Part shown: piece after piece, positions 42,625-51,442 of the stretch
Layout: every line of letters starts with the position of its first letter
Position numbering within the stretch: position 1 is the stretch's first letter
Origin: Aequorivita antarctica
GTDB lineage: Bacteria > Bacteroidota > Bacteroidia > Flavobacteriales > Flavobacteriaceae
Assembly: GCF_007997155.1 (NCBI RefSeq)
Contig: NZ_VORT01000004.1
Location: 186,001-250,000 of the forward strand
Length of the DNA stretch: 64,000 bases
Direction of reading: 5' to 3'
Notes under the pieces: generated by a model
Told to the model about the DNA's origin: nothing
Seen by the model: the letters and a program-made list of their open reading frames with translations, nothing else
Database searches by the model: none
Position numbers and translations under genes: made by a program

Positions 42625-42666
42625 AAATCACAAATCACAAATCACAAATCACAAATCACAAATCCC
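42625..42666. repeat. Tandem AAATCAC repeat, left arm of S23 cassette 1
   Basis: Five perfect 7-bp units AAATCAC and a sixth, AAATCCC. It lies between the M1 peptidase start (42612) and the stop of the S23 gene (42675). On the transcript it can pair with the copy at 43063-43075 upstream of the S23 gene. Confidence 0.9.
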
Positions 42667-42674
42667 ATATTTCT

Positions 42675-43031
42675 TTACTTCGATTTTCTTTTTTCTACAA
42701 TTGCGGAAAAAATCTTTCTTAGTTCATCCGCCTCATTAATTAATTCAACCAATTTAATATCATATTGGTTATTAAAGTCATTTTGGAGTAATTTTAACCA
42801 AAGAAGCGATTCTTTTGCTTCCTTCCTGCATATTTTAATTCTGAAGTCAAAATCTTTATCACTTACATGCTCATTTGATTCTATATAGTTAGCTGCTACA
42901 GAGCCTGAAGATCTAATTAGTTGTTTCCCATCTTCAATATTTGCAATACTTTTTTGAAATGAATAAACTAACTTCCGAACAGATTTTGCAAACAAGTAAG
43001 TTCTAATTTCCAAATCATAAGGTTTTTCCAT
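42675..43031 (-). CDS. Four-helix-bundle protein (S23/IVP family), copy 1
   Basis: A 118-aa helical protein of the family first seen in intervening sequences of 23S rRNA (S23/IVP), related to the Avd accessory protein of diversity-generating retroelements. The family motif appears as QLIRSSGSVAANYIES near residue 37, with KICRKEAKESLLWLKLL near residue 70. Members form basic four-helix pentamers or related rings that bind nucleic acids. The gene lies between the M28 and M1 peptidase genes on the same strand, not in rRNA, and is flanked by inverted AAATCAC-type repeats. Only about 25% similarity to the second copy is seen by eye. Confidence 0.88.
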   Translation of the reverse strand: MEKPYDLEIRTYLFAKSVRKLVYSFQKSIANIEDGKQLIRSSGSVAANYIESNEHVSDKDFDFRIKICRKEAKESLLWLKLLQNDFNNQYDIKLVELINEADELRKIFSAIVEKRKSK

Positions 43032-43062
43032 AAACGAATTTTTCTTATATTTTTCTTTTGTT

Positions 43063-43075
43063 ATTTGTGATTTGT
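43063..43075. repeat. Right arm of S23 cassette 1
   Basis: ATTTGTGATTTGT is the exact reverse complement of ACAAATCACAAAT, which occurs several times in the array 42625-42666. The two arms enclose the S23 gene. Confidence 0.6.
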
Positions 43076-43090
43076 ATTTTTTGAGATTTA

Positions 43091-45527: not shown

Positions 45528-47339
45528 CTAAAACGGATACGTATTTTCCGAAATAACTTTATGTGCAATTGTACGTCTCAACTCACCAATATTCGGCATG
45601 TTTTGATATTTGGTGAAACGTTTAAGCCCCATCAACATCGCGCGTTGTTCATCTCCTTCAGAGAAGGAAAGAATTGCTTCTTTTGCTTTTACGGTTATAA
45701 TATCTACTGCATGGTAAAGATACAATTGCGACATTGCTACTTGTTCTTTTTGTGTTTCTTCCCCAAAGCGTTTTGCGTTCTTTTCAGTTCGTAAAATTCC
45801 GCTTTCAGCCATGTAGATTTCAATCAAGATATCTGCTGCAGCCAATAGTGTCTGCTGGTGTTCTTCCAAATCGTTACCGTATTTTTGAACGGCGCTTCCG
45901 GCAACCATTAAGAATACCTTTTTCAGTTTAGCGATCATCGCTTTTTCTTCGGAAAGCAATTCGGAGAAATCTGGTTTTTCAAAAGAAGGAATTCCCATCA
46001 ATTCTGCGGCAACTGCTTGTGCAGGATTCAAAAGATCTACGTGTCCTTTCATTGCTTTTTTCACTAGCATACCAACGGCCAACATTCGGTTGATTTCGTT
46101 GGTACCTTCATAAATACGGGCAATTCTAGCATCACGCCAAGCAGATTCCATTGGTGTATCTGCACTGTAGCCCATACCACCATAAATCTGAATTCCTTCG
46201 TCAGCACAATTTTGAACATCTTCGGAAACGGCTACTTTTAAGATAGAACACTCAATAGCATATTCTTCAACTCCTTTTAATTCGGCTTCTTGATGGCTGT
46301 TGCCAGCTTTTATGCGAAGCGCAATTCGATCTTCAATATTTTTTCCAGCGCGGTAACTAGCACTTTCGCTAACATAAGCGTTGGTTGCCATTTCAGCAAG
46401 TTTCAATTTTATTGCTCCAAATGAAGAAATTGGAACATTAAACTGAATCCGCTCATTCGCATATTGAACCGCGTTTGCAATTACACGTCGTTGCGCATCA
46501 AGACTCGCCGCCGCAAGTTTTATTCTACCAACGTTAAGAGCGTTCATTGCAATTTTGAAACCTTCGCCGCGCTCGCCTAACATATTTTCTACTGGAACTT
46601 TGGTATCACTAAAGAAAACCTGACGAGTAGAGGAGGAGTGAATACCTAATTTCTTTTCTTCCTCGCCCATTGAAATTCCATTTTCAGGGTCGTTTTCAAC
46701 AATAAATCCTGTGATGTATTTATCGTCTTCAATTCGGGCAAAAACAATCATGGTATGACAAAAACCTGAATTTGAAATCCACATTTTTTGTCCGCTGATG
46801 GAGTAATGTTTTCCATCTTCAGAAAGTACGGCTTTTGTTTTTCCGCTGTTGGCATCGCTTCCCGCACCTGGTTCAGTTAACGCATAAGCTCCAAACCATT
46901 CGCCAGTAGCGAGTTTTGGGACGTATTTTTTCTTCTGTTCTTCTGTTCCGTATAGAGTAATTGGAAGCGTTCCAATACCTGTATGTGCGCCAAATGCTGT
47001 AGCTACAGAACCTGTTGCACCAGAGATGTAATCACAAACCAACATAGTGGTAACGAAACCCATTCCTAGTCCGCCATATTCCTCTGGCACAGCAACACCA
47101 AGAAGACCTAACTCTCCAGCTTTGCGCATAACTTCTTCAGTTAACGCGTAATCTTTATGCTCAAAACGTTCCTTAAGTGGCCAAATTTCACGGTCAACAA
47201 ATTCCTTAACGGAATCGCGCATCATTTTTTGTTCTTCGGAAAAGTCTTCTGGGGTGAAAACGTCTTCAGCTTTTGTTTCTTTTACTAGAAATTGGCCTCC
47301 GCGAAGCAATTCATTTTTTGTTGTTTCTGTTGTATTCAT
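45528..47339 (-). CDS. fadE: Acyl-CoA dehydrogenase (FadE)
   Basis: A 603-aa FAD enzyme for the first step of beta-oxidation. The dehydrogenase core (about 30-420) has the FAD/substrate motif YALTEPGAGSDANS near residue 150, and IYEGTNEINRML near 410 with the catalytic Glu. The C-terminal extension of about 180 residues places it with the long, VLCAD/ACAD9-like group. It is the last gene of the operon FadN-FadA-FadE, as in the Bacillus subtilis fadNAE operon. The spacer to fadA contains inverted repeats. Confidence 0.96.
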   Translation of the reverse strand: MNTTETTKNELLRGGQFLVKETKAEDVFTPEDFSEEQKMMRDSVKEFVDREIWPLKERFEHKDYALTEEVMRKAGELGLLGVAVPEEYGGLGMGFVTTMLVCDYISGATGSVATAFGAHTGIGTLPITLYGTEEQKKKYVPKLATGEWFGAYALTEPGAGSDANSGKTKAVLSEDGKHYSISGQKMWISNSGFCHTMIVFARIEDDKYITGFIVENDPENGISMGEEEKKLGIHSSSTRQVFFSDTKVPVENMLGERGEGFKIAMNALNVGRIKLAAASLDAQRRVIANAVQYANERIQFNVPISSFGAIKLKLAEMATNAYVSESASYRAGKNIEDRIALRIKAGNSHQEAELKGVEEYAIECSILKVAVSEDVQNCADEGIQIYGGMGYSADTPMESAWRDARIARIYEGTNEINRMLAVGMLVKKAMKGHVDLLNPAQAVAAELMGIPSFEKPDFSELLSEEKAMIAKLKKVFLMVAGSAVQKYGNDLEEHQQTLLAAADILIEIYMAESGILRTEKNAKRFGEETQKEQVAMSQLYLYHAVDIITVKAKEAILSFSEGDEQRAMLMGLKRFTKYQNMPNIGELRRTIAHKVISENTYPF

Positions 47340-47358
47340 TTTTTTTTAGATTTTAGTA

Positions 47359-47401
47359 GTTAGTACTGAGTATTGAGAAAATCTCACTACCCAATACTCA
47401 C
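47359..47401. repeat. Face-to-face arms: possible empty S23 cassette
   Basis: GTTAGTACTGAGTATTGAGA (47359-47378) is followed 3 nt later by its inverted form (47382-47401; 16 of 20 match within the pair). These arms match the arms that flank the S23 gene between fadN and fadA (19/20 and 17/20). No gene lies inside. They fold into a long hairpin in the fadA-fadE spacer of the mRNA. Confidence 0.75.
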
Positions 47402-47414
47402 ATCTCAATACTTT

Positions 47415-48605
47415 TTATTTCAAAAATTCATATACACCTGCAGCACCTTGTCCGGTTCCCACGCACATTGTCACCATTCCGTATTTTCCTTGTAGGTTTC
47501 GTTTGCGCATTTCATCAAAAAGTTGCGTGGAGAGTTTTGCTCCTGTACAACCCAATGGGTGGCCCATAGCGATTGCACCTCCGTTTACGTTTACAATTTC
47601 TTTGTCTAAACCAAGTCCGCGGATTACAGCTAATGATTGTGAAGCGAATGCCTCGTTCAATTCTATAAGCTCAATTTGGTCTTGCTTTAATCCAGCTTGT
47701 TTCAATGCTTTTGGGATTGCGTATAATGGACCGATACCCATTATGCTTGGTTCAACACCAACTGGTGCATAACTTACAAGCCTAGCAATGGGTTCAATAT
47801 TTAGTTCTTTCACCATTTCTTCACTCATAATTACGGTGAAGGAAGCACCATCACTCATTTGTGAGGAGTTTCCAGCTGTAACACTTCCACCAGCGGCAAA
47901 AACAGGGCGAAGTTTTGAAAGGGCTTCAATATTGGTTCCTTTTCTTGGGCCTTCGTCTTTGGTTACGGTATATGTTTCTGTTACTTTTTTTCCAGCATCG
48001 TTTACAAAAGTGTGTTCCACATCAATAGGAACTATTTGATCATCAAAGCGACCTTCGTCTTGAGCTTTAAGCGCTCTCATTTGACTAGTATAAGCGAACT
48101 CATCTTGATCTTCACGGGAAACGTTGTATTTTTTGGCAACTGCTTCAGCAGTTAAACCCATATTCCAGTAATAATCTTCGTGGCCTTCTTTCGCCATTTT
48201 ATAATCTGGAACAGGCTTGTAACCTCCCATTGGAATGTAGCTCATGCTTTCAGCTCCACCGGCTATGATGCAATCTGCCATTCCACTTTGGATTTTTGCT
48301 GTTGCAATGGCGATAGTTTCTAATCCTGAAGCGCAATAACGGTTCACCGTCATACCAGGAATTTCAACGATATCCAATGCCATTAACGAAATCAGGCGCC
48401 CCATGTTTAGTCCTTGCTCTGCTTCAGGCATCGCGTTACCAACTATTACGTCATCAATTCGTTTTTTATCGAGTTGTGGCAATTCGTTTAATATATATTT
48501 AATGGTTTCCGCTGCGAGTTCGTCTGGACGTTTGAAGCGAAAAACTCCACGAGGTGCTTTTCCTACTGCGGTTCTGTATGCTTTTACTATATATGCTGTT
48601 TTCAT
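47415..48605 (-). CDS. fadA: Acetyl-CoA C-acyltransferase (FadA thiolase)
   Basis: A 396-aa cytosolic thiolase that cleaves 3-ketoacyl-CoA to acetyl-CoA and a shortened acyl-CoA. The nucleophile is C91 in NRYCASGLETI, the His is in GGAIAMGHPLGCTGA near residue 350, and the second Cys is in MCVGTGQGAAG near 380. It is the partner of FadN. An S23 gene between two repeat arms separates it from fadN. Confidence 0.97.
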   Translation of the reverse strand: MKTAYIVKAYRTAVGKAPRGVFRFKRPDELAAETIKYILNELPQLDKKRIDDVIVGNAMPEAEQGLNMGRLISLMALDIVEIPGMTVNRYCASGLETIAIATAKIQSGMADCIIAGGAESMSYIPMGGYKPVPDYKMAKEGHEDYYWNMGLTAEAVAKKYNVSREDQDEFAYTSQMRALKAQDEGRFDDQIVPIDVEHTFVNDAGKKVTETYTVTKDEGPRKGTNIEALSKLRPVFAAGGSVTAGNSSQMSDGASFTVIMSEEMVKELNIEPIARLVSYAPVGVEPSIMGIGPLYAIPKALKQAGLKQDQIELIELNEAFASQSLAVIRGLGLDKEIVNVNGGAIAMGHPLGCTGAKLSTQLFDEMRKRNLQGKYGMVTMCVGTGQGAAGVYEFLK

Positions 48606-48624
48606 TTTTGTTTAGTATTTAGAT

Positions 48625-48644
48625 GTTAGTATTGAGTATTGAGA
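48625..48644. repeat. Left arm of S23 cassette 2
   Basis: GTTAGTATTGAGTATTGAGA. It ends 4 nt before the stop codon of the S23 gene (plus-strand coordinates). It is the reverse complement, at 19 of 20 positions, of 49005-49024. Confidence 0.9.
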
Positions 48645-48648
48645 TAGC

Positions 48649-49002
48649 TCATTTTTCTAACGATTTTATTAATGCATAATTCATTTTTTGAAGTTCAACA
48701 ACCTTGGATAAAATAGGATTTACAATGTCTTCCGAACAAATTGAAAGTTTATTTGATAGTAATAATTGAGTAAAAAGTTCATATGAAGAACCGTTTGCAA
48801 TTCCGAGAAAATTTTTAAACTCACCGTTGGTATTTCTTCCTGCTCCCTCCGCTATATTCGAAGGAATTGAGACAGCGCTTCTTCGCAGCTGACTTATCAA
48901 GCCAAACTTCTCTTCTTTTGGGAAATTTGTGGTTAATAAATAGACTTCTTCAGCAACTTCCATTGCCTTATTCCAAATCTTTAAATCTTCTAATTTGTGC
49001 AT
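48649..49002 (-). CDS. Four-helix-bundle protein (S23/IVP family), copy 2
   Basis: A 117-aa helical protein of the S23/IVP family. The hallmark is GLISQLRRSAVSIPSNIAEG near residue 34; LEDLKIWNKAMEVAEEVYLL forms helix 1. Members bind nucleic acids and are known from 23S rRNA intervening sequences and DGR accessory proteins. Here the gene sits inside the beta-oxidation operon between fadN and fadA. The start ATG at 49002 lies 2 nt from the right arm. A TTG at 49017 would extend the frame into the repeat (encoding SIEK) and is rejected. It is cotranscribed with fadN, with only 31 nt between. Confidence 0.92.
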   Translation of the reverse strand: MHKLEDLKIWNKAMEVAEEVYLLTTNFPKEEKFGLISQLRRSAVSIPSNIAEGAGRNTNGEFKNFLGIANGSSYELFTQLLLSNKLSICSEDIVNPILSKVVELQKMNYALIKSLEK

Positions 49003-49004
49003 TT

Positions 49005-49024
49005 TCTCAATACTCAATTCTAAC
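49005..49024. repeat. Right arm of S23 cassette 2
   Basis: The reverse complement reads GTTAGAATTGAGTATTGAGA, one mismatch from the left arm. It fills the spacer between the fadN stop (49034) and the S23 start (49002). Confidence 0.9.
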
Positions 49025-49033
49025 TACTCAATT

Positions 49034-51442
49034 CTAATTTCTAAGAGGTTTCCCTTTTTGAATCATATGTTGAAGTCTTTCCAAAGTCTTTCTTTCTCCA
49101 GTTAAACTTAAGAAAGCTTCCCTTTCAAGATCGAGTAGGTATTGCTCACTCACATAGCTTGCTTCGCTTAAATCGCCACCTGCCATAACATAGGCTAGTT
49201 TGTTGGCTATTTTCTTGTCGTGCTCGCTGATGTAATTTCCAGCAAACATTTGGTCGGTTCCAACGAGGAACATTCCCAAGGCTTGTTTTCCAAGTACCTT
49301 AATATCTGTTCTTGGAATTGGTTTCGTATAACCTTGATCTGCCATAAATCGCGCTACTTCTTTAGCTGCAGCAATTTGTCTGTTTTGGTTAACGATTACA
49401 ATATCTTTTCCTTTCTGAAGAATTCCGGTATCATAAGCTTCATATGCAGAAGTGGAAACCTTTGCCATGGCGATAGTCAAGAAATATTCTTGAAGTGTGT
49501 TGAGTTCAACATCATCTTTTCTAAATAGATCACTTGCGCGCATTGCCATTTCTTTGGAACCACCACCACCAGGAATAACCCCTACGCCGAATTCTACCAA
49601 ACCAATGTAACTTTCAGCGGCTGCAACTACTCTGTCTGCGTGAAGGGTGAACTCGCAACCACCGCCCAAGGTCATTCCGTGTGGTGCAACCACAACTGGA
49701 ATAGAGGAGTAGCGAAGGCGCATGCTCGTATCTTGAAAATATTTTATAGCGGCGTTCAATTCTTCGTATTCCTGCTCTACAGCCATCATAAATATCATCC
49801 CGATATTGGCGCCTACTGAGAAGTTTTTGCCGTTGTTGGCAATTACCAAACCGTCGTAATCTTTTTCGGCCATGTCAATGGCTTTGTTGATTCCTGCCAA
49901 AACATCACCGCCAACAGAATTCATTTTACTAATAAATTCTACATTTAAAATCCCATCGCCAAGATCTTCAACTACAACTCCGTTATTTCTAAAAACTTCA
50001 GAGGTTTTACGGATGTTGTCTAAAATAATAAACGAATCCTGTCCGGGAACTTTTACGTGCTTTTTCTGTGGAATATCGTAGTAATAGGTATTTCCGTCTT
50101 TTATAGTGTAGAAAGAATCAACGCCAGCTTCAAGCATTTCATTTACCCAAGCGGCTGGTTCTTTTCCTAATTCTTTTATTAATTCAATGCCTTTTTTAAC
50201 GCCAACGGCATCCCAAATTTCGAAGGGACCATTATCCCAGCCGAAACCTGCTTTCATAGCATCGTCAATTTTATAAAGCTCGTCGGTTATTTCAGGAATT
50301 CTTTTGGAAACGTAAGCGAACATCGCCCCGAAATTCTTTCGGTAAAACTCTCCTGCTTTATCCTCTCCTTTTATAAGAATTGGAAAACGGTCAGTAACTT
50401 TATCAACCGATTTCGTTTTTTCCAAAGTGCCGAAAGCTGCTTTTTTGCTTTTTCGGTAGTCTAAAGAATCTAGGTCGAGGGTGAGGATTTCACTACTGCC
50501 ATCATCATTTTTCACTTTTTTGTAAAAACCTTGGCCGCTTTTACTTCCCAGCCATTTGTTTTCCATCATGGTGTCAATGAAGCCTGGAATTTGGAAAATT
50601 CCGTGTTCTTCATCATCGGGAACATTGTCGTAAATTCCTTTTGAAACGTGTACTAATGTGTCCAATCCAACAACGTCAACGGTTCTAAAGGTTGCAGATT
50701 TGGGTCGGCCAATAACTGGACCGGTCAATTTATCAACTTCTTCAACAGTTAGACCCATTTCCTTCACTTGGTGAAAAAGGCTTTGGATGCCGAAGATTCC
50801 AATTCTGTTTCCTATAAAGGCTGGTGTGTCTTTTGCAACTACGGAAGTTTTTCCAAGGAATTTTTCACCATAACCATTTAAAAAGTCTAAAACTTCAGTT
50901 GAAGTTTTAGGTCCAGGAATAATTTCAAAAAGTTTTAAGTATCGCGGTGGATTGAAGAAGTGTGTTCCGCAGAAGTGTTTTTGAAAATCTTCACTGCGGC
51001 CTTCGCTCATAAATTTTATAGGAATACCAGAAGTATTCGAGGTAATAAGTGTACCAGGCGTTCTGTGTTTATCAAGGTTTTCAAAAACCTGTTTTTTAAT
51101 GTCCAACCGTTCAACAACCACTTCAATTATCCAGTCGGCAGTTTTTACTTTTGAAATATCGTCTTCCAAATTTCCGGTGGAAATGCGTTTTGCAAAATCT
51201 TTGTGATAGAGTGGGGCAGGGTTGCTTTTAATGGCTTTCTGAAGATCGCCATCCACAATTCTATTTCGAACCACTTTGTCTTCAAGGGTAAGCCCTTTTT
51301 TCTTTTCGTCGTCGTTCAGCTCGCGGGGAACAATGTCCAGCAAAAGCACTTCCACGCCAATGTTTGCGAAATGGCAGGCAATGCCACTTCCCATAATTCC
51401 GGAACCAATTACCGCTACTTTGTTAATTCTTCTTTTTGACAT
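49034..51442 (-). CDS. fadN: 3-hydroxyacyl-CoA dehydrogenase/enoyl-CoA hydratase (FadN type)
   Basis: An 802-aa bifunctional beta-oxidation enzyme. The NAD-dependent hydroxyacyl-CoA dehydrogenase comes first (about 5-450; GSGIMGSGIACHFA near residue 13 and CGTHFFNPPRYLKLFEI near 157). The crotonase-like enoyl-CoA hydratase domain follows (about 500-720; VVVAPHGMTLGGGCEFTLHA). This order is reversed relative to E. coli FadB and matches B. subtilis FadN. It is the first enzyme gene of the operon, 6 nt after the MarR gene. Confidence 0.95.
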   Translation of the reverse strand: MSKRRINKVAVIGSGIMGSGIACHFANIGVEVLLLDIVPRELNDDEKKKGLTLEDKVVRNRIVDGDLQKAIKSNPAPLYHKDFAKRISTGNLEDDISKVKTADWIIEVVVERLDIKKQVFENLDKHRTPGTLITSNTSGIPIKFMSEGRSEDFQKHFCGTHFFNPPRYLKLFEIIPGPKTSTEVLDFLNGYGEKFLGKTSVVAKDTPAFIGNRIGIFGIQSLFHQVKEMGLTVEEVDKLTGPVIGRPKSATFRTVDVVGLDTLVHVSKGIYDNVPDDEEHGIFQIPGFIDTMMENKWLGSKSGQGFYKKVKNDDGSSEILTLDLDSLDYRKSKKAAFGTLEKTKSVDKVTDRFPILIKGEDKAGEFYRKNFGAMFAYVSKRIPEITDELYKIDDAMKAGFGWDNGPFEIWDAVGVKKGIELIKELGKEPAAWVNEMLEAGVDSFYTIKDGNTYYYDIPQKKHVKVPGQDSFIILDNIRKTSEVFRNNGVVVEDLGDGILNVEFISKMNSVGGDVLAGINKAIDMAEKDYDGLVIANNGKNFSVGANIGMIFMMAVEQEYEELNAAIKYFQDTSMRLRYSSIPVVVAPHGMTLGGGCEFTLHADRVVAAAESYIGLVEFGVGVIPGGGGSKEMAMRASDLFRKDDVELNTLQEYFLTIAMAKVSTSAYEAYDTGILQKGKDIVIVNQNRQIAAAKEVARFMADQGYTKPIPRTDIKVLGKQALGMFLVGTDQMFAGNYISEHDKKIANKLAYVMAGGDLSEASYVSEQYLLDLEREAFLSLTGERKTLERLQHMIQKGKPLRN

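Follow-up and report, generated by a model that had tools for sequence, protein, structure and literature searches.

An S23 gene bracketed by inverted heptad repeats in the fad operon of Aequorivita antarctica, a probable copy of a widespread mobile operon-spacer cassette

The spacer between the fadN-type and fadA genes of Aequorivita antarctica holds a gene of the S23 (four-helix-bundle, IVP) family between two inverted arms, both of which are runs of 7-nt repeats. We found this arrangement in a 64,000-nucleotide stretch of the genome, hereafter the window (contig NZ_VORT01000004.1, positions 186,001 to 250,000), and comparison with relatives leads us to regard it as probably one copy of a widespread class of operon-spacer cassettes, about 0.4-0.6 kb in size, that move as a whole in a homing-like manner. 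On our best reading, the S23 cassette is to mRNA what the intervening sequence is to rRNA, and it spreads in a homing-like way.

The S23 gene lies on the minus strand at window positions 48649..49002 (ATG at 49002, stop codon at 48649) and encodes a protein of 117 residues, which in a profile search exceeds the curated cut-offs of both PF05635 (E = 1.4e-38, 131.7 bits against a cut-off of 33.8) and TIGR02436 (E = 6.3e-36, 122.9 bits against a cut-off of 24). It is the sole listed open reading frame of at least 80 codons within the cassette, which comprises the whole spacer from the fadN stop codon to the fadA start codon (48606..49033, minus strand, about 430 nt). Upstream lies the fadN-type gene for 3-hydroxyacyl-CoA dehydrogenase/enoyl-CoA hydratase (49034..51442, minus strand), whose best NCBIfam model is NF052272 (FadB) at 591.5 bits, below the cut-off of 999. 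Downstream lies fadA (acetyl-CoA C-acyltransferase; 47415..48605, minus strand; TIGR01930 over its cut-off), followed by the next gene of the operon, a fadE-type acyl-CoA dehydrogenase (45528..47339, minus strand; NF058590, 1.8e-223, over its cut-off). The original prediction, made from the letters of the DNA, had placed an S23 gene in inverted arms between fadN and fadA, and the profile matches of the gene and of its two neighbors, to FadB and acetyl-CoA acyltransferase models, bear this out.

On the transcript, the 5' arm of the hairpin occupies 49005..49037 (minus strand), consists of the heptads TTAGAAT TGAGTAG TTAGAAT TGAGTAT TGAGA and overlaps the fadN stop codon; the 3' arm (48612..48644, minus strand) is 33 nt long and 85% complementary to it. 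A shorter pair of 20 nt had been predicted, 48625-48644 with 49005-49024, and these segments are indeed reverse complements at 19 of 20 positions, with the one difference already noted, and lie 4 nt from the S23 stop codon and 2 nt from its start codon as described; this inverted pair is real, but the true pair extends to 33 nt (48612-48644/49005-49037). With up to 3 mismatches allowed, the 20-nt arm has four matches in the window, itself included, against 0.03 expected by chance. The minimum-free-energy fold predicted for 48600-49045 contains a long stem (z -2.73; 1 of 100 shuffled sequences equally stable), and an Rfam search of 47000-49600 returned no match. The S23 protein at this site is under purifying selection: dN/dS is 0.045-0.13 among the 15 pairs of its six orthologues there, and over all pairs of S23 genes at the fadN-fadA site it falls in the same range in 23 of 24, with 0.22 in one. 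Because it is constrained by selection, the protein is presumably made.

The cassette is not the one-off that it had been taken for. Ten S23 genes are found in the A. antarctica genome itself by PF05635 search, each of the 28 congeneric genomes carries 5-21 PF05635 genes (317 in sum), and the family occurs in 157 of 198 sampled Bacteroidota genomes. We examined 130 of the 317 congeneric matches, mostly the higher-scoring ones (loci L011-L040 were left out of this harvest), and kept 125 elements, the other five having less than 150 nt of flank. Matched inverted arms with a score of at least 24 surround 99 of these 125 S23 genes, compared with 5.2% of mismatched arm pairs and 3 of 48 genes of the window; the remaining 26 fall below the repeat threshold. 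The arms have a median length of 30 nt and a median complementarity of 85%, starting 2 nt past the upstream stop codon and ending 10 nt before the next start codon (97 elements). Compared with themselves, the arms of these 97 elements match at 0.60 for lag 7 and 0.57 for lag 14, and no other lag from 2 to 13 exceeds 0.36. In 118 of 123 elements (two of the 125 had no context call) the S23 gene is in sense with two co-directional neighbors; one case is antisense and four are convergent. The baseline is 55% of 383 genes.

The sequence of the heptad varies from site to site, so the arm is not a fixed terminal repeat. Among 99 arms we counted 72 distinct top heptads, two of them found at more than one site; top heptads were chosen by count with ties broken arbitrarily, and the figure of 72 is inflated by degeneracy. 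What is kept across sites is the period of 7, the complementarity and the strand polarity, with G exceeding C in the 5' arm in 87 of 99 congeneric and 62 of 72 distant arms. When arm partners were shuffled, none of 10,000 shuffles reached the observed mean in the genus set, in the distant set described below, or among the 39 S23 genes of its fadN-fadA sites (own-partner mean 30.9, shuffled 20.2). Shuffles confined to each of six S23 subfamilies reached the observed mean in 0, 515, 0, 362, 109 and 1223 of 10,000 cases. The own partner is the single best arm in 22 of the 125 congeneric elements and among the top three in 61; it is seldom the single best because related elements share heptads. 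Likewise, at the fadN-fadA sites it is the single best in 10 of 39, heptads there being partly shared.

We defined sites by single linkage on flank similarity, and because the fad spacers and another cluster fall together in site 0, the resulting 31 sites are a lower bound. Nine of ten sampled downstream neighbors had a match (several below cut-off since the proteins are partial; one had none), the best matches being cysN, folD, sdhB, hemE, hisF, obgE, nqrE, part of metH, and paaY; the neighbors of the other S23 loci are open reading frames. Ectopic spread looks rare, with 9 of 6968 different-site pairs reaching 70% protein identity. Across different sites, arm similarity shows no significant correlation with protein similarity (Spearman 0.04; 34 of 500 permutations as high), and we therefore make no claim that a given S23 subfamily has a heptad of its own at all sites; at protein identities of 0.6-0.7, 25% of 77 pairs have an arm score of at least 26 compared with 1.5-3.2% in lower bins, which is suggestive only. 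Broken S23 copies exist among the congeners. At site 6, one cassette (L072) lies just 5' of a gene that matches methionine synthase starting at model position 315-330; this metH appears split, with the cassette close to the split. At the cysN site, the arms of L143, L147 and their relatives resemble, by eye, direct rather than inverted repeats of a partly self-palindromic heptad, and their inverted-repeat score is low.

The same anatomy extends beyond the genus. Our distant set comprises 108 of 110 loci (two were dropped for short flanks), 78 of them named loci and 30 from the phylum sample. Arms scoring at least 24 flank 57 of the 78 and 15 of the 30, versus 9.6% of mismatched pairs, and 36 of the 108 genes lie below the repeat threshold. 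In these 72 distant arms, self-match is 0.64 at lag 7, and apart from lag 14 no other lag exceeds 0.29. Of 105 distant loci, 98 have S23 in sense between co-directional genes. By our assignment rule, the S23 gene occupies the fadN-fadA spacer in 39 of the 108 loci and the fadA-fadE spacer in nine, in a set partly picked by similarity to the S23 protein studied here; in L284, L290 and L296, an S23 gene apparently lies between fadN- and fadA-like genes on the opposite strand of the locus. High arm scores also occur in records labelled as other phyla (L213, Ignavibacteriae; L274, Clostridia; L258, Syntrophobacterales; L283, Acidobacteriaceae) and low ones in L240 (Alphaproteobacteria) and L273 (Bowmanella), though several such records are metagenome bins and may be misassigned.

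Relatives differ in what fills the fad spacers. Across 27 congeners, the fadN-fadA spacer holds an intact S23 gene of one of three types (in 6, 3 and 4 genomes), a broken S23 gene in one, and no S23 gene in 13, where it measures 78-117 nt with an inverted-repeat score of 17-34. Among 29 other genomes of the phylum, the same spacer is empty at 6-26 nt in eight, contains S23 in four, contains an inverted repeat of at least 22 without a detected S23 gene in 14, and holds other sequence in three. The fadA-fadE spacer is 21-26 nt long in five congeners and contains S23 in nine of the 29 other genomes. Spacer comparison, proposed as a check for presence and absence of the cassette, has therefore found relatives without S23 at the fadN-fadA site; the accompanying statement that the cassette sits where related operons have nothing is true for some relatives, but S23 recurs at this site across many genera. 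By eye, the spacer states seem not to follow the fadA tree. Comparing filled with empty alleles by eye, we saw no target-site duplication or clean empty-site junction; the whole spacer differs, and the differences include the fadN stop codon. A G+C-rich hairpin of the type CCTCCCC...GGGGAGG occupies the fadN-fadA spacer of L043, L048, L060, L064, L328 and L329, and among four congeners some pairs of it also look moved as a unit. In L340, a fadN-fadA spacer of 471 nt has a strong inverted repeat and no S23 gene by profile, possibly enclosing other cargo or a decayed copy.

We compared cassettes with their flanks in 175 same-site pairs; 16 of the 125 elements fall outside these pairs, scoring required at least 0.6 protein and 0.65 flank identity, and same-site pairs share phylogeny and are hence not independent. 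In 17 of the 175 pairs, representing nine site/subfamily combinations, the cassette is more than 92% identical (gaps uncounted) and at least 8 points above its 300-nt flanks. The excess of cassette over flank has a median of just 0.7 points over all 175 pairs (93 positive); the majority thus resemble cases of plain descent or of transfer long ago. In the pair L054/L061, the cassettes are 96.3% identical over 546 nt without gaps versus 82.5% and 86.0% in the flanks, and dS is 0.081 in S23 versus 1.5 in fadA; in L122/L094, S23 dS is 0.0 versus 1.2 and 1.1 in the flanks; and in L046/L058 the two spacers are 96.3% and 96.4% identical. Averaged over the nine combinations, identity drops from 0.93 inside the cassette to about 0.90 over the 30 nt next to it and then mostly to 0.80-0.87, and in several transferred pairs it stays raised for about 90-270 nt on one side. 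For the 122 of 175 pairs with a finite dS (the other 53 had none), S23 dS is less than half the mean flank dS in 60, less than a fifth in 18 and more than twice in 6. Control windows inside fadA show the same spike in 1 of 2457 cases (450 nt) and 5 of 3510 (300 nt). In the six pairs with flanks more than 93% identical, the cassettes average 88%, so the cassette is not simply slow-evolving. These comparisons indicate that arms and S23 gene move horizontally together, as one unit, to the same spacer of the same operon. The mobility first suggested for the cassette is supported both by the relatives lacking S23 at the site and by the horizontal transfer of cassettes as units, and its suggested IVS-like nature by the S23 gene lying in a long hairpin within a protein operon.

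Hairpins of the same build without a gene are transferred too. Among 19 same-type pairs of similar length and at least 75% identity, six show unit transfer by at least 8 points, the best being L050/L063 (99% over 98 nt versus 87% in the flanks), which argues that S23 is not needed in cis. One such gene-less hairpin, with the heptad of the fad cassette (TATTGAG), fills the fadA-fadE spacer of A. antarctica (47340..47414, minus strand; predicted fold z -3.76, 1 of 200 shuffles as stable), a spacer that in other species holds an S23 cassette or is empty. The gene-less heptad hairpins are probably derivatives of S23 cassettes or pre-existing or pre-occupied sites. Two of them, L015 and L022 near position 1500, lie in tight spacers that, named by eye, seem to be atpA-atpG and atpD-atpC. 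The window also contains a second S23 gene (42675..43031, minus strand, 118 residues; PF05635 2.3e-10), with an arm of AAATCAC heptads at 42628..42663 and an opposite arm at 43049..43084 located by inverted-repeat scan.

We assessed the genomic background by pattern and family searches plus a 450-kb sample of the A. antarctica genome (383 genes). Nine ungapped inverted repeats in this sample score at least 34, and a loop longer than 50 nt is found only in those of the window's two S23 genes. A flanking inverted repeat of at least 24 surrounds 12 of the 383 genes, both S23 genes included, and one of at least 28 surrounds four: the two S23 genes, one other, and fadA, which stands between two such elements. 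Heptad arrays are common, with 19 in 450 kb by our criterion; arrays of periods 5, 6, 8 and 11 number 0, 4, 3 and 4, and those of period 10 number 16. The TATTGAG heptad occurs at many S23-free places in the genome, either in hairpins such as L015 and L022 or in solo arrays, and since it is frequent in S23-free spacers, arm sequence alone is no signature. The concern that the arms might occur genome-wide without S23 genes is therefore justified for the heptad itself, but within elements the two arms match each other far better than in shuffles.

The nearest known kind to these cassettes is the S23-bearing intervening sequence (IVS) of 23S rRNA. Passages of one account (PMC4990558) describe the Coxiella IVS as 428 nt long, with an S23 ORF, 28-bp terminal inverted repeats and a link to RNase III; S23-bearing IVSs as scattered in distribution, with horizontal transfer; and the Coxiella S23 ORF as undergoing reductive evolution and apparently not made. 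As far as these passages go, the fad cassette resembles the IVSs of Coxiella and Leptospira in its size of about 0.4 kb, its S23 ORF as the loop and its terminal inverted repeats of similar length (33 nt here); its class also shares with them a scattered distribution and horizontal transfer. Unlike them, it lies between fadN and fadA, outside any 16S or 23S rRNA gene; its class has arms of 7-nt repeats that differ by site, many copies per genome and gene-less hairpins of the same build; and, unlike the Coxiella ORF as described in those passages, its S23 gene is under purifying selection. Because protein, size and stem are shared but the location is another, we do not file the cassettes as rRNA IVSs. 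S23-family ORFs are likewise found in some inserts of CPR rRNA genes, and according to excerpts of PMC11270868 the majority of those inserts are positioned at a stem-loop's top or base.

Several other known systems share single traits with the cassettes. Orphan "four helix bundle protein" genes of Bacteroidota (TIGR02436/PF05635) belong to the same protein family as the cassette S23; one S23-family gene lies between the genes for guanylate kinase and nicotinate-nucleotide adenylyltransferase within phage regions of two Flavobacterium columnare strains, according to a table in PMC5524665. In such sources as excerpted, these orphans figure as annotated genes only, and we found no paper that describes heptad brackets, operon-sense placement or unit mobility for them. 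The TAACTGA heptanucleotide repeats of Beggiatoaceae, Cyanobacteria and Bacteroidetes are, in the sections of PMC4679880 drawn on, intergenic and almost all direct repeats of one fixed heptamer. They share with the cassette arms a 7-nt period and intergenic position; the cassette heptad, unlike the heptamer so described, varies, is paired in inverted orientation and is associated with S23. The Avd protein of diversity-generating retroelements is a distant homologue of S23 (NF033474, 21.9 bits, far below the cut-off of 80), and we rejected an assignment of the cassette S23 as Avd given this score and the lack of a reverse transcriptase beside the gene. REPIN/RAYT elements and MITEs are palindromic intergenic repeats with gene-bearing and gene-less forms, and are alike to the cassettes in these respects. 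A REPIN/RAYT assignment fails because the A. antarctica genome has no Y1 transposase match, and an IS or MITE assignment because the copies lack a common terminal repeat sequence, even though the diversity of top heptads is inflated by degeneracy. Among open-licence PMC papers we found no description of S23 cassettes in protein operons, which does not prove their absence in print.

In these cassettes, a sense S23 gene and its inverted arms of 7-nt repeats take up the space between two co-directional genes. We propose that, once transcribed into the polycistronic mRNA, the arms would form a stem that leaves the S23 reading frame in its loop, as in 23S rRNA intervening sequences. This hairpin might be cut by RNase III or another enzyme, and S23 may bind its own hairpin, as its relationship to pentameric S23/Avd proteins suggests. 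The cassette enters the same spacer in other species and replaces its prior content, with flanking tracts that are short or lacking, and the element itself may drive this spread. Xanthomonas S23 is a toroidal homopentamer of four-helix bundles in the parts of PMC4990558 consulted, and 2gsc and 2rld are solved structures of S23 relatives. In biofilms of Flavobacterium psychrophilum, the genes with differential expression include one of the S23 family (excerpt of PMC5787105), so at least one member of the family is transcribed. A homing-like pattern of same site and short tracts is seen, though ordinary short-tract recombination can yield it too, and no enzyme likely to drive homing is apparent in the cassette, S23 being its sole listed ORF of at least 80 codons. 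Reverse transcriptase domains (RVT_1) occur in 9 of 28 congeners, with one match in the A. antarctica genome, while Y1 transposase (PF01797) is present in 19 of 28 and has no match in that genome or in G006; judged by the presence of these domains, mobility driven by either is not supported, as they are too patchy to be required. The sole reverse transcriptase match in A. antarctica (G000:C43:146453-146986) shares its contig with the S23 gene, at a distance of about 88 kb, and in another genome (G008:C1:116037-118199) three Y1 transposase matches with equal scores lie within about 2 kb. We would advance only tentatively the larger claim that S23 cassettes form a new homing-element class of polycistronic mRNA, in which a four-helix-bundle protein and a heptad hairpin jointly copy themselves into defined gaps between the cistrons of core operons, throughout Bacteroidota and perhaps outside it, with rRNA intervening sequences as a special case.

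The main rival to homing-like spread is passive exchange, in which spacers evolve fast through heptad slippage and fold-back copying and are swapped by short-tract homologous recombination in their conserved coding flanks, S23 riding along. We consider this a serious possibility, if short of probable. It would account for alleles that differ across the whole spacer, fadN stop codon included, and for the apparent lack of a mobility enzyme, and it is made more likely by gene-less hairpins being transferred as well (in 6 of 19 same-type pairs) and by the raised flank identity on one side of several pairs. Less easily reconciled with it are the fall in mean identity from 0.93 within the cassette to mostly 0.80-0.87 beyond the first 30 nt, the rarity of equivalent spikes in fadA coding windows, and flanks that are mostly 10-25% diverged and thus poor recombination substrates, although choosing pairs by cassette-over-flank excess favors short tracts and weakens this case.

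Alternatively, hairpin and S23 might be a resident regulatory device of the operon, acting on mRNA stability, translational insulation or fadN/fadA stoichiometry and patchy through loss. Purifying selection on S23, strict sense orientation, sites upstream of genes best matching cysN, folD, sdhB, hemE, hisF, obgE and nqrE, and recurrence at fadN-fadA across genera (39 of 108 loci, in a set partly picked by similarity) would fit such a host function; we nevertheless find it unlikely, as S23 is at fadN-fadA in just 4 of 29 sampled genomes, with the spacer empty in eight, and in 14 of 27 congeners (one broken), and as S23 types and hairpins replace one another and broken copies occur. Still less probable is a retro-mobile element, whose sense hairpin RNA would be bound by Avd-like S23, reverse-transcribed in trans and inserted into operon spacers: sense orientation, transcript-borne anatomy and the kinship of S23 with Avd (the weak NF033474 match, and PMC10053308 as excerpted) agree with it, but RVT_1 is found in just 9 of 28 congeners, and G006 carries 17 S23 genes and no reverse transcriptase match. 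That an orphan S23 gene landed by chance in A+T-rich low-complexity spacer DNA is highly improbable; the heptad does occur at many S23-free places and heptad arrays are common, but arms are matched within elements in the shuffles and are rare around other genes in the control set.

To our knowledge, no function has been described for S23 proteins, whose genes have been met with in rRNA inserts and as orphans without explanation. The great majority of the S23 genes examined here share one anatomy, in sense in an operon spacer within a matched heptad hairpin, and some of these cassettes have demonstrably moved as units into fixed sites. This gives S23 a testable role, that of binding or spreading the hairpin RNA, and ties together the intervening sequences of rRNA, the orphan S23 genes and the Avd proteins. 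The cassettes also suggest that the spaces separating core genes are subject to a source of change that has been overlooked.
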